In this document: positions 3 to 21,889 of the stretch, one piece after another | Numbering within the stretch: the stretch's first letter is position 1 | Layout: each line of letters opens with the position of its first letter | Assembly: GCA_016185015.1 (NCBI GenBank) | Contig: JACPOI010000020.1 | Location: 310,001-374,000, forward strand | Source of the DNA: Burkholderiales bacterium | GTDB taxonomy: Bacteria > Pseudomonadota > Gammaproteobacteria > Burkholderiales > Burkholderiaceae_C | DNA: 64,000 nt | Reading direction: 5' to 3' | Position numbers and translations under genes: made by a program | The notes under the pieces: generated by a model | The model's input: only the letters and a program-made list of their open reading frames with translations | The model's database searches: none | Told to the model about the DNA's origin: nothing

Positions 3-1895
3 GAGCACCCCAACCAGTTCGCCCTGCTGCGCCAGCGCCGCTTCGCGCCCTTCTTCTGGACGCAGTTCAGCGGTGCCGCCAACGACAACCTCTTCAAGTT
101 CGCCTTCACCGTCATGGTCACTTACCAGCTGCAGGTCAGCTGGCTGCCACCCGCCATGGCGGGCCTGGTGATCGGCGCACTCTTCATCCTGCCCTTCCTG
201 CTGTTTTCCGCCACCAGCGGCCAGCTGACCGACAAGTTCGAGAAGACGGCCATGATCCGCTTCGTCAAGAACCTGGAGATCGTGATCATGCTGATCGCGG
301 CCTGGGGTTTCATCATGGCCAATGTGCCGGCCCTGCTGCTGTGTACCTTCATGATGGGCCTGCACTCCACACTCTTCGGCCCGGTCAAGTTCGCCTACCT
401 GCCGCAGGTGCTGAGCGAACGTGAGCTCACGGGCGGCAACGGCATGGTGGAGATGGGTACCTTCGTGGCCATCCTGCTGGGCAATGTGGTGGGCGGCCTG
501 ATCGTCGCCATCCCCGAGGTGGGCCACCAGAACGTGGCCTTCGCCTGCGTGGCCCTGGCCGTGGTGGGGCGGGCCGCGGCGGCGCGCATCCCCGCGGCGC
601 CGGCCACCGACCCCGGCCTCAAGATCAACTGGAACCCGGTGTCCGAAACCTGGCGCAACCTCAAGCTGGCGCACGGCAACATCGTGGTCTACCGTTCGCT
701 GCTGGGCATCAGCTGGATGTGGTTCTTCGGCGCGGTCTTCCTGAGCCAGTTCCCCAGCTTCGCCAAGGAAGTGCTGCACGGTGATGCGCACGTGGCCTCG
801 CTGCTGCTGGTGGTGTTCTCCATCGGCATCGGCATCGGCTCGCTCATGTGCGAAATGCTCAGCCGCCGCCACGTGGAAATCGGCCTGGTGCCCCTGGGTG
901 CCATCGGCATGACGGTCTTCGCCATCGACCTCTACTTTGCTTCCCGCGGCCTGCCCGTGTCCGAAGTGATGGGCCTGGGCGCCTTCCTGGCCCAGCCTGC
1001 CCACTGGCGCGTCATGGCCGACCTGCTGCTATTGAGCCTGTTCGCCGGCCTCTACAGCGTGCCCATGTACGCGCTGATCCAGCTGCGCAGCCCGGCCACG
1101 CACCGCGCCCGCATCATCGCGGCCAACAACATCCTCAACGCCCTGTTCATGATCGCCAGCTCGCTCATCGCGGGCGCGCTGCTGGCCATGGACGTCACCA
1201 TCCCGCAGATCTTCTTCCTGGTGGGCCTGGCCAACGCCGTGGTGGCGCTCTACATCTTCCTGCTGGTGCCCGAGTACCTGCTGCGTTTCGTGGCCTGGGT
1301 CATGAGCCACTTCGTCTACCGCTTCAAGGTCACGGGCGACGAGCACATCCCTACCACCGGCCCCGCCATCCTGGCCTGCAACCACGTGAGCTTTGTGGAC
1401 GCGGTGCTGCTCATGGCGGCCAGCCCGCGCCCCATCCGCTTCATCATGGATCACCGCATCTTCAAGATCCCGGTGCTGGGCTGGCTGTTCAAACTGGCCA
1501 AGGCCATCCCCATCGCCCCGCGTGCCGAAGACCCGGCGGCCTACGACGCGGCCTTCACCGCCGCCGCCCAGGTGCTGAAAGAAGGCGACCTGCTGGCCAT
1601 CTTCCCCGAAGGCGGCATCACCCACGACGGCACCCTGCAGGAGTTCAAGGGCGGCATCATGAAGATCCTGGAACAGCAGCCTGCACCCGTGGTGCCCATG
1701 GCGCTGACCAACCTCTGGGGTTCCTACTTCAGCCGCGTCGAACTGGTGGGCGGCAAGCCGACAGCCATGGCCAGGCCGTTCCGAAGGGGGATTTTCAATA
1801 CTGTGGGACTGAATGTGGGGGTGCCGCTGACGGCGGGTGAGGTAAAACTTGACGAAATTAGGCATCGAGTTTCACAGCTGATTGATGGCGCGTAA
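3..1895 (+). CDS. MFS transporter / 1-acylglycerophosphate acyltransferase fusion (LplT-PlsC type), 5' end cut off
   Basis: The reading frame is open from base 3, so the gene starts before the window. The visible N-terminus has the NDNLFKFAF signature of LplT-like lysophospholipid transporters. A membrane domain of about ten hydrophobic segments runs to roughly residue 400, counting from the Met at 114. A PlsC acyltransferase domain follows, with the catalytic NHVSFVD motif (H424, D429) and FPEGG (from F497). In related fusions the transporter flips lysophospholipid inward and the acyltransferase reacylates it at the inner membrane. The AMP-forming acyl-ACP synthetase domain found in full-length Aas-like triple fusions is absent, and the protein ends soon after the PlsC domain. 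Base composition falls in the last 100 bases, where an AT-richer region begins. Confidence 0.9.
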   Translation, partial: EHPNQFALLRQRRFAPFFWTQFSGAANDNLFKFAFTVMVTYQLQVSWLPPAMAGLVIGALFILPFLLFSATSGQLTDKFEKTAMIRFVKNLEIVIMLIAAWGFIMANVPALLLCTFMMGLHSTLFGPVKFAYLPQVLSERELTGGNGMVEMGTFVAILLGNVVGGLIVAIPEVGHQNVAFACVALAVVGRAAAARIPAAPATDPGLKINWNPVSETWRNLKLAHGNIVVYRSLLGISWMWFFGAVFLSQFPSFAKEVLHGDAHVASLLLVVFSIGIGIGSLMCEMLSRRHVEIGLVPLGAIGMTVFAIDLYFASRGLPVSEVMGLGAFLAQPAHWRVMADLLLLSLFAGLYSVPMYALIQLRSPATHRARIIAANNILNALFMIASSLIAGALLAMDVTIPQIFFLVGLANAVVALYIFLLVPEYLLRFVAWVMSHFVYRFKVTGDEHIPTTGPAILACNHVSFVDAVLLMAASPRPIRFIMDHRIFKIPVLGWLFKLAKAIPIAPRAEDPAAYDAAFTAAAQVLKEGDLLAIFPEGGITHDGTLQEFKGGIMKILEQQPAPVVPMALTNLWGSYFSRVELVGGKPTAMARPFRRGIFNTVGLNVGVPLTAGEVKLDEIRHRVSQLIDGA

Positions 1896-18615: not shown

Positions 18616-19812
<1,197 letters not shown>

Positions 19813-19838
19813 TTAGGCCGGCACCCCAGGGCACGTGC

Positions 19839-20558
19839 TCAGAAGCGGTTTTGCTGCGCCTTCTTCTTCCAGACTTCCCAGGGCCGGCCCAGGTGCTCGT
19901 CGTTCATGTCCGAAGTGGCCTGGGCCTCTTCCGGCGTCAGGTAGTTGATCTCGCCCAGGCGCATGGCCTCGCTCTGCAGGCGGGCGTTGCTCTCGGTGTA
20001 GATGGCTCGGAACACCACCTGCTGGATGGAAAAACCCACCACCACATTGCCGTGCCCGCGCAGCAGCGCCACGGCCTGCTGGCCCAGGCTGGCGGCCAGG
20101 GCTTTGCCCAGCGCCTGGTTGCGGATCAGCAGGTCGCTGCTCTCGCCGGCCGTGTGCCGGATCTCGAACACCGGTACCTGCGCGCCCAGAAAACCGCTCA
20201 TGTGGCAGATCGGCCGCAGGCGCGCGCCCGTCACGCCAAAGGGGATGACGGCCGGCGAGTGGCTGTGGATCACCGCCATCACATCGGGGCGGCAACGGTA
20301 GATCTCGCTGTGGATGAAACGCTCCACATAGGTCTTGCGGCCGCGCTCGTCGTGCACATTGCCGTCCAGGTCGCAGGCCAAGATGTCGTCGGCCGTCACC
20401 AGGCCCGGTGCCATGCTGCGCGCGATCAGGAAACGGTCGGGCTGCTTGTCATGGCGCACGCTGATGTGGCCGAAGCCGTCGAGCACGCCTTCGTTGACGA
20501 GGATGTGGTTGGCGATGACGAGGTCGTCGATCAGCGCGGGGTTGGCGGTGGGGGTCAT
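19839..20558 (-). CDS. Class II aldolase/adducin family protein
   Basis: A 239-residue metal-dependent aldolase-fold protein. It shows the family's N-terminal GFGHISVR motif, the metal-binding HSHSPAV pair, ARLRPICHMSGFLG and RGHGNVV. Members include L-fuculose-phosphate aldolase, but many bacterial ones act on hydroxy acids or are decarboxylases. Lacking pathway genes, I do not name a substrate. AGGAG precedes the ATG at a good distance. It is divergent from a Bug-type solute receptor, a pairing that suggests uptake and catabolism of an organic acid. The two starts are separated by the structured element at 20632-20897. Confidence 0.88.
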   Translation of the reverse strand: MTPTANPALIDDLVIANHILVNEGVLDGFGHISVRHDKQPDRFLIARSMAPGLVTADDILACDLDGNVHDERGRKTYVERFIHSEIYRCRPDVMAVIHSHSPAVIPFGVTGARLRPICHMSGFLGAQVPVFEIRHTAGESSDLLIRNQALGKALAASLGQQAVALLRGHGNVVVGFSIQQVVFRAIYTESNARLQSEAMRLGEINYLTPEEAQATSDMNDEHLGRPWEVWKKKAQQNRF

Positions 20559-20631
20559 GTCGGGTCTCCTGGGCAGTCAGTGTTTTCCTGACTTGCATTG
20601 ATGATAAGTATGATTATCGTCATAAGATCTG

Positions 20632-20897
20632 GGGACTGCTCACACTAATTTCTCAAGTGCGAATGGGGTGCAAATGGTGCCAATCTAGGCGCGCGACGAA
20701 GCCCAGACTGGCCGTCTGGGTGAGGAGTGCAACAACGAGTGGCGCCATTTGCACCCCGTTCCCTTCGGGTTGCGGCCAAAAAGGCCATGCGGGGTGTTGC
20801 GCGGACTTGCCGGGGACTACCCCGGCGGCGCCCACGCGCCTACCGCATGGCCTTTTTGATCCGCAACGCATCTTGAGAAATTAGTGTGAGCAGTCCC
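20632..20897. repeat. 266-bp structured element with 26-bp terminal inverted repeats (MITE-like)
   Basis: The ends, 20632-20657 and 20872-20897, are perfect 26-bp inverted repeats (inner part ACTAATTTCTCAAG). Inside lie two long hairpins. The first has arms 20665-20681 and 20741-20757 (16 of 17 paired, the exception a G-T wobble) and encloses a smaller perfect hairpin at 20702-20720. The second has arms 20777-20792 and 20843-20858 (16 of 16), extended after a bulge by 20769-20775 pairing 20861-20867, and encloses a perfect hairpin GCCGGGG-ACTA-CCCCGGC at 20809-20826. No transposase gene is present and no clear target duplication is visible. It fills most of the 362-base gap between divergent genes. 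Short open frames inside are by-products of the symmetry. Confidence 0.75.
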
Positions 20898-20920
20898 ATG
20901 CAACAAGACGAGGAGACACC

Positions 20921-21889
20921 ATGAACATTCTGCATCGCATGTCCGCCGGCCTGGCGCTGGGGGCGGTTGTGCTCTCCCACGCCATGGCGCAGGGCTTCCC
21001 GCAACGCCCCATCCAGGTCATCGTGCCGGTGTCGGCCGGTGGCGGCACCGACGTGATGGCCCGCACCGTGGGCCAGAAGGTGGGCGAGCTGCTGGGCCAG
21101 CCCGTGGTGGTCGAGAACAAGACCGGCGCAGGCGGCAACATCGGCACCGAGTACGTGGCCAAGGCCAAGGCCGACGGCTACACCCTGCTGTTCACGCCCA
21201 ACACCATCGCCACCAACGTGGCGGTCTACCGCAAGCTGCCCTACGACCTGCTCAAGGACTTCCAGACCGTGGCCCTGGTCGGCCAGACCGACGTGGCGCT
21301 GGTGGTCAACAGCAATGTGAAGGCCAGCAGCGTCAAGGACTTCGTGGAGTTGGCGCGCAGCAAACCCGGCGCGCTCAACTACGGCTCGGCCGGGCTGGGC
21401 AGCTCGCAGCACCTGACGGCCGAATACTTCAACCAGCTCGCCGGCACCAGCTCCAACCACATCCCCTACAAGGGCCAGTCGCAGGCCATGAATGACCTCG
21501 TGGGCGGCCAGCTCGACTACATGTTCAGCCCGCTGCAGAACGCGCTGCCCTTCATCAAGCAGGGCCGCATCCGCGTGCTGGCCGTGGCCGCCAAGCAGCG
21601 CCACCGCGAGCTGCCCCAGACCCCCACGCTGATCGAATCCGGTTACCCCGGCGCCGAGGTCTCCAACTGGTTCGCGCTCTACGCCCCGGCTTCCACGCCG
21701 CCGGCCGTGGTCAAGCGCCTGCACGCCGCCTACACCCAGGTGCTCAAGCAGCCCGAGATGAAAGCCAAGCTCGAAGGCATGGGTTTCGACTTCGTCTTCC
21801 TCAACGCCGACCAGGCCACCGACTTCATGCGCTCCGAGCTCGTGCGCTGGTCGCGCGTGACGGCACACGCTGGCATCAAGGCCGAATAA
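20921..21889 (+). CDS. Bug-family tripartite tricarboxylate transporter receptor
   Basis: A 322-residue periplasmic binding protein with a signal peptide ending at SHAMA (about residue 23). The family hallmarks are the opening YPxRPI-like FPQRPIQVIVP, GGGTDVMAR, VENKTGAGGNIG, and LNYGSAGLGSSQHLTAE. Bug receptors are hugely expanded in Burkholderiales and bind carboxylates or similar small acids. Membrane TctA/TctB subunits are absent here, as is usual for orphan members. AGGAG (20911-20915) precedes the ATG. The right end of the 266-bp element is only 23 bases upstream, so the promoter must be within or beyond it. A hairpin terminator follows. Confidence 0.93.
   Translation: MNILHRMSAGLALGAVVLSHAMAQGFPQRPIQVIVPVSAGGGTDVMARTVGQKVGELLGQPVVVENKTGAGGNIGTEYVAKAKADGYTLLFTPNTIATNVAVYRKLPYDLLKDFQTVALVGQTDVALVVNSNVKASSVKDFVELARSKPGALNYGSAGLGSSQHLTAEYFNQLAGTSSNHIPYKGQSQAMNDLVGGQLDYMFSPLQNALPFIKQGRIRVLAVAAKQRHRELPQTPTLIESGYPGAEVSNWFALYAPASTPPAVVKRLHAAYTQVLKQPEMKAKLEGMGFDFVFLNADQATDFMRSELVRWSRVTAHAGIKAE

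Follow-up and report, generated by a model that had tools for sequence, protein, structure and literature searches.

A probable non-autonomous transposon of the Burkholderiales with a hairpin core apparently related to that of the Correia elements

The region between two divergent genes of a Burkholderiales bacterium, within a stretch of 64,000 nucleotides that we analyzed as a whole and refer to here as the window (contig JACPOI010000020.1, positions 310,001 to 374,000), harbors a strongly palindromic element, and it raises the question of whether such a structure is a mobile repeat or a structured RNA, and whether it has relatives among the repeats already described. A first-pass annotation, made from the letters of the sequence, had reported perfect 26-bp terminal inverted repeats (TIRs), two long hairpins with inner hairpins in a closed multi-branch fold, and a location between two divergent genes, and it was right on each of these counts (Table 1). 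The repeats of the window copy (L001) show 0 mismatches over 26 bases, and the DNA fold predicted for positions 20625-20905 reaches -108.4 kcal/mol, as compared with -52.4 +/- 3.9 kcal/mol for shuffled sequences (n=200, z -14.3), with 0 shuffles as good. This predicted fold comprises a closing stem, of 29 pairs if one bulge is allowed, and the long hairpins HI and HII, each with its inner hairpin, separated by the small CCC-TTC-GGG hairpin. The divergent neighbors are a class II aldolase gene (19839-20558, minus strand) and a TctC-type receptor gene (20921-21889, plus strand), the ATG of which is separated from the end of the element by 23 bases. The element itself contains open frames 72 and 75 codons long. 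A function as intrinsic terminator was considered and rejected, since a scan of positions 20500-21000 gave one site versus 0.6 expected. Elsewhere in the window (655-776, plus strand), a full-length Rfam match to Bcj11 (RF02835), Burkholderia RNA 11, was observed at 92 bits.

Table 1. Location of the element and of its parts in the window, with flanking dinucleotides
Feature	Position	Strand	Remarks
Whole element	20632..20897	+	266 bp; orientation defined by module HI first
Left terminal inverted repeat	20632..20657	+	outermost part of a kind common to IS5-family ISs
Right terminal inverted repeat	20872..20897	-	exact complement of the left repeat
Module HI	20661..20761	+	long hairpin; internal loop conserved; encloses an inner hairpin
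Core of module HI	20673..20750	+	model R2, 83.4 bits, E 7e-21
Small hairpin CCC-TTC-GGG	20761..20769	+	between modules HI and HII
Module HII	20769..20867	-	second long hairpin, homologous to HI, inverted order
Core of module HII	20779..20855	-	model R2, 66.6 bits, E 4e-16
Left flank dinucleotide TG	20630..20631	.	TA in 74/115 copies
Right flank dinucleotide AT	20898..20899	.	TA in 72/115 copies

The first-pass annotation had also suspected a mobile repeat, naming several copies per genome and empty-site orthologues as the signs to look for, and both were found. Six full copies (100, 88, 88, 87, 86 and 80%) are present in the element's own genome, where a scan for exact ends returned those of five of the six known copies and nothing else, and a looser scan added one lone end (G000:C17:118730-118749). 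With that genome counted in both cases, matches were obtained in 21 of the 60 genomes searched and, in a family-level search, in 44 of 200 genomes and 38 of 141 genera. An exact-pattern scan of named genomes yielded 60 stretches, in Hydrogenophaga, Curvibacter, Hylemonella, Caenimonas, Polaromonas, Ramlibacter, Ideonella and other genera. The copies lie at unrelated places and their flanks are common to few of them. A direct search of plasmid and phage collections with the window element gave no match. Pairs of ends lying only 48-52 bp apart (L229, 101-148; G023:C6:23822-23873) were seen as well, and represent elements shrunk to the terminal hairpin.

The insertion sites tell the same story. 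A search of 26 genomes of the genus, its own included, with the flanks of each of six sites joined together showed the window site to be uninterrupted in at least five of them (91, 88, 88, 75 and 73%). Of the five further sites, four are uninterrupted in several genus genomes among the matches listed; five empty sites were read at base level. The gap between the aldolase gene and tgt, filled in another genome (L048 in G018), is empty in the window (approximately 19798-19838), the copy of which sits at the opposite end of the aldolase gene. TA flanks the element on both sides in 54 of the 115 copies, and the extended flanks, with CTA on the left in 42 copies and TAG on the right in 49, define a CTAG target. 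The window copy itself, flanked by TG and AT, lacks an intact TA duplication.

The ends of the element lead to a putative source of its mobility. Insertion sequences (ISs) that have ends of this kind and use the same target occur in Paraburkholderia phymatum (L186), at nine places in G029 and, within the genus of the window, at two places in G006, one of them weak. Four of these ISs (L186, L188, L189 and L210) measure 813-826 bp between ends and are flanked by TA; we take them to belong to the IS427 subgroup. An end variant assembled from family copies agrees with both L188 and L189 at 20/21 bp of one end and 16/16 of the other, with L210 at 19/20 and 16/16 bp and with L186 at 17/18 and 14/15 bp, and only 16 of 19 bases are the same between the end of the window copy and L186. 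The four ISs resemble the element, then, in their terminal 16-21 bp, TA flanks and CTAG target, and differ from it in that they encode a transposase and have an unrelated interior, with just short, chance-like words in common. The IS transposase belongs to the IS5 family: it matches Pfam DDE_Tnp_1 (41 bits, cut-off 23) and, as a partial frame, NCBIfam IS5_3 at 107.4 bits, just below the cut-off of 110; a relative of the L186 transposase was sought in the element's own genome and none was found.

Several copies at unrelated places, empty sites, target-site duplication and ends shared with an autonomous IS are thus all on record for this element. Since only its outermost 16-21 bp are common to IS5-family ISs, we infer that it is best read as a non-autonomous transposon (MITE), probably mobilized in trans by an IS5-family transposase. 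An ordinary MITE, derived from a local IS by internal deletion and holding hairpins by chance, would equally have the end variants in common with IS5-family ISs, but we deem this extremely unlikely, given that the interior matches the four ISs compared only in the short words mentioned above and that the core is conserved in genomes with quite different ends. Five loci (L265, L266, L267, L276 and L278) present another end type, AGAGCGTG.. or AGAACCTG.., with inner TTTTCATGG or TTTTCGTGG, hinting that their ends follow a different IS.

It is the interior of the element that has been preserved over the longest distances. Among L001 and 17 distant members, the HI arms have a median identity of 42% (lowest 9%), as against 73% for the loops of the HI core and 81% for the HII core, and the length of distant family members stays at 260-272 bp in 17 of 20, with flanking letters counted in some. 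Loop sequences that outlast the rest of the element point to a putative binding partner. A covariance model of the HI core (R1) was built from 45 sequences of the element family, leaving out three of the 20 distant loci (L269, L274 and L278). Built on HI alone, R1 recovers HII in inverted orientation (48.3 bits, E 1.5e-10 in L001), and a second module was found in 18 of 39 loci, the 39 including eight one-module loci of Cupriavidus and Eleftheria. Across 25 two-module loci, these 18 and seven from the class, the modules lie 103-109 nt apart in 24, with a spacing of 123 nt in the other. One-module forms are known from Hydrogenophaga (164 bp; L161 and L167) and from Cupriavidus. A plain alignment of the HI and HII consensus strings fell short of significance, scoring 34 when the best of 500 shuffles scored 37. 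Judged by their model scores, HI and HII are homologous hairpin modules set in inverted order.

In the order, R1 matches were obtained in 79 of 300 genomes, and 15 of the 19 order loci fetched are closed elements of 258-277 bp with quite different ends. A second model (R2), built from 57 matches without Neisseria, was then used across the class (Gammaproteobacteria in the GTDB taxonomy), where 118 of 369 genomes and 93 of 272 genera present matches at E<=1e-3; the search scored 12 candidates per genome, so that per-genome counts are lower bounds, and the 251 genomes devoid of a match at this threshold provide a rough control. Among the 11 best-scoring class loci fetched, seven have a second inverted module, and the closed element measures 264-283 bp in six, is shorter in two (196 and 214 bp) and is cut by a contig end in three. 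Module spacing, the core and its loop sequences are conserved across the class while the element ends are unrelated. The features that would characterize a proposed Correia-like superfamily are the hairpin core CAAGGCG..CAAGG..GCAACGC, present in the window copy with the two R2 scores of Table 1, and a closing terminal stem with TA flanks, TA being absent from some copies.

The first-pass annotation had remarked that the element recalls the Correia elements of Neisseria, while judging its sequence different and finding no family for it. Ends, arms and length are indeed not the same; the core of the hairpin, on the other hand, does appear to be related. A Correia query matched real copies in Neisseria gonorrhoeae records, and its nucleotides 28-80 matched Cupriavidus metallidurans (85% over 53 nt, E 3e-6), with an apical stretch that is almost identical, as well as Eleftheria (81%, E 2e-3). 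The same query gave no match in phages. R1 scores 24.9 bits (E 5e-4) on a Correia copy and 42.3 bits on Cupriavidus; it recovered one of the two intact 105-bp Correia copies in a 109-kb set and returned 0 Correia matches over the whole gonococcal record. R2, on the other hand, scores 46.9, 38.9 and 29.8 bits on Correia copies and picks out, across that entire record, 104 places at E<=10 (94 at E<0.1, 77 at E<0.01 and 50 at E<1e-3), with Correia-repeat letters at most 60 nt away in 18 of the 20 best.

The link to Correia elements rests on R2 and on the Cupriavidus intermediates, and it could be argued that the resemblance reflects convergence of long hairpins with similar loops, instead of descent, in view of the differing ends, arms and hosts and of the failure of R1, beyond its 24.9-bit score on a single copy, to detect anything in the gonococcal record. 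Convergence is nonetheless highly unlikely in our opinion, because R2 yields 94 gonococcal places at E<0.1 when most class genomes (251/369) have none at E<=1e-3, and because the BLAST link through Cupriavidus is direct. On the evidence of its core, the candidate undescribed element of the first-pass annotation is related to the Correia elements, as an environmental, two-module form within the proposed Correia-like superfamily. A literature search, the coverage of which excludes most subscription journals, retrieved no title or abstract with Correia relatives outside Neisseria.

The conservation of the fold across copies raises the question of what is being maintained. Stem pairs were taken from the RNAalifold structure of 113 aligned copies (alignment A2, comprising 113 of the 115 oriented distinct copies; L124 and L163 were left out for length). 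In this set 97.1% of pair cells are standard, and 66 of 107 pairs have changed on both sides, in 910 cells, versus 32 pairs and 241 cells in shuffles; slid structures collapse in the covariation count. The compensatory changes in the arms that the first-pass annotation had proposed as support for a selected structure do exist, then, and the covariation is massive, but the pattern of mismatches goes against selection as RNA. The ends are mostly matched within a copy and differ between copies, with 0 to 6 mismatches per 26 bases, and long-arm mismatches are divided into 92 G-T and 104 A-C (114 versus 118 without the column filter), a pattern that is left unchanged by sorting copies according to the direction of the neighboring gene. 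RNase P RNA, taken through the same steps as a control in 30 of the 39 genomes with a match (those with a fetched locus), behaves differently, with 49:6 in the 30 genomes and 17:3 in the 14 genomes of the genus only (Fisher p 5e-9 and 0.002). The inner stems show 89:34 G-U versus A-C, mostly from one column, a ratio that is uninformative because this column dominates and because the structure was chosen on the same strand.

Selection on transcripts should favor G-U over A-C where pairing is imperfect. Given that G-U is not preferred over A-C, the long arms seem to be matched as DNA rather than selected as RNA, and with such a mismatch pattern covariation alone does not demonstrate a functional RNA. 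This carries a caution, for heavy covariation can come from a DNA-level process in which no functional RNA takes part. The symmetric mismatches are compatible with both arm-to-arm templating and selection for a DNA cruciform. The second of these, in which the arms would covary because, for instance, a transposase or host factor acts on the cruciform, is a serious contender, if not the one we favor: the conserved size and module spacing imply a geometric constraint and symmetric mismatches are expected for DNA too, but clusters of neighboring changes that occur in the two arms of one and the same copy (L053, L107 and L122) suggest one-step copying of one arm from the other. At a site occupied in three species (L006, L101 and L109), an A-T pair has turned into T-A in place, and the few other changes are one-sided.

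A different signal is obtained from the orientation of the element relative to genes. Coding direction was taken from 300-bp flanks with heuristic gene calls, omitting the same-site copies L101, L109, L089 and L124, and in tandem gene contexts 59 copies lie in one orientation versus 14 in the other (p 1e-7), the bias being apparent both in the near set (45:12) and in the other set (14:2). For the 28 copies whose flanks are long, the count from longer open frames is 14 versus 2, and flank-based and open-frame directions agree on both sides in 19 of these 28. In addition, a start codon lies at most 12 nt from the left end in 36 copies and from the right end in nine. Since target and ends are nearly symmetric, the orientation bias points to transcription- or translation-dependent selection acting on copies already inserted, and it fits selection dependent on transcription better than a purely DNA-level account. 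The first-pass annotation had suggested that the element could change the expression of the two neighboring genes, a possibility on which its position and this bias over many copies bear. For 20 Correia copies, the count in tandem contexts is 7 versus 4. The same-site copy of L006 (1501-1765), L101 (301-565) and L109 (301-565) is conserved like its flanks and has a GGAGGAG-like motif (less clear in L109) on one side and, on the other, an ATG that follows the element after 2 nt. These three loci prompted a model in which the folded element bridges two sites, bringing a Shine-Dalgarno on one side near the start codon on the other, which we set aside for its weak support: upstream Shine-Dalgarno matches of at least four letters occur in 17 of 47 such copies, as against 42 of 183 controls taken at boundaries and 287 of 1135 pieces drawn at random from flanks.

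The orientation bias and the excess of start codons at the left end, together with the better conservation of loops than of arms and the covariation of the stems, would also be expected of a structured regulatory RNA, either a leader or a gene, that is spread by transposition and whose stems are kept by selection on the transcript. We consider this unlikely, since the long arms lack a G-U preference even when sorted by gene direction, at variance with the RNase P of relatives, and since no Rfam family is found over the element at gathering score, either in the window copy or in 27 further loci; the matches seen at E<=10 are sub-threshold only. On these same two grounds, a structured-RNA gene was rejected as the main reading.

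Taken together, these results make it likely that the element is a MITE and that it belongs to an old superfamily spread over the class, in which the Correia elements would be one-module members and the window copy a two-module form. An IS5-family transposase acting in trans would cut at the element ends and insert the element at CTAG with duplication of TA, and insertion would take place mostly near gene starts or ends. The arms may be kept matched at the DNA level, either because one arm, within a hairpin or cruciform, serves as template for the other or because the cruciform is selected; being matched as DNA, both ends would change together and could follow whichever transposase is at hand. 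Across the class, arm and end sequences turn over and yet remain complementary. Once inserted, the element would probably be transcribed in the preferred direction and its long duplex in the mRNA might be offered to RNase III, by analogy with the Correia stem, to which RNase III is reported to bind (PMC2649163). More tentatively, and as a possibility rather than an expectation, Correia elements, the window element and perhaps ERIC might be branches of one ancient transposase-free superfamily across the class, in which the single or double hairpin core would act as a conserved docking or replication module, the arms would be rewritten one from the other as DNA and the ends would change in concert, so that the element could be passed between IS transposases and keep its mobility. 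With the proposed superfamily present in 118 of 369 class genomes and ISs with matching ends in some of the hosts, harmless environmental models would become available for the question of how Correia elements are mobilized.

Several known repeats invite comparison with this element. RUP of Streptococcus pneumoniae, with a length of about 107 bp, differs in depending on another transposase family. Its TIRs resemble those of IS630-Spn1 and it inserts at TA, and it is thought to work alike, with TIRs as in an IS (PMC2229807). MITEs of Polaromonas sp. JS666 are cited in PMC10969869, and a related host, Polaromonas jejuensis, carries the present element (L184). The ERIC or IRU repeats of enterobacteria are likewise palindromic, with TA at their termini and a TIR (PMC2229807), and some copies share the letters AAGGCGGC..CAACGC; they differ in being 127 bp long, and R2 matches one of four ERIC copies at 20 bits (E 0.0012; L356 1512-1607, Klebsiella pneumoniae) and two at about 6 bits, leaving one unmatched.

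The closest comparison is with the Correia elements (CREE, NEMIS). PMC2649163 gives over 120 of them in two N. gonorrhoeae strains and, as of 2009, describes the repeat as known only from Neisseria and its mobilizing mechanism as undetermined. According to the same source (PMC2649163), Correia elements have one core and measure mostly 104-108 or 153-157 bp, in contrast to the two inverted modules and 266 bp of the window element. The ends of the latter, GGGACTGCTCACACTAATTTCTCAAG, differ from those of a gonococcal Correia copy (L301), the end sequences being unrelated, so that neither the 26-bp Correia repeat ends nor the length with one core by which Correia elements are strictly defined are found in it. 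Both are non-autonomous, with 26-bp terminal inverted repeats and TA at their ends, and the Correia core CAAGGCG..CAAGG..GCAACGC is recovered by R2, a model built without Neisseria.
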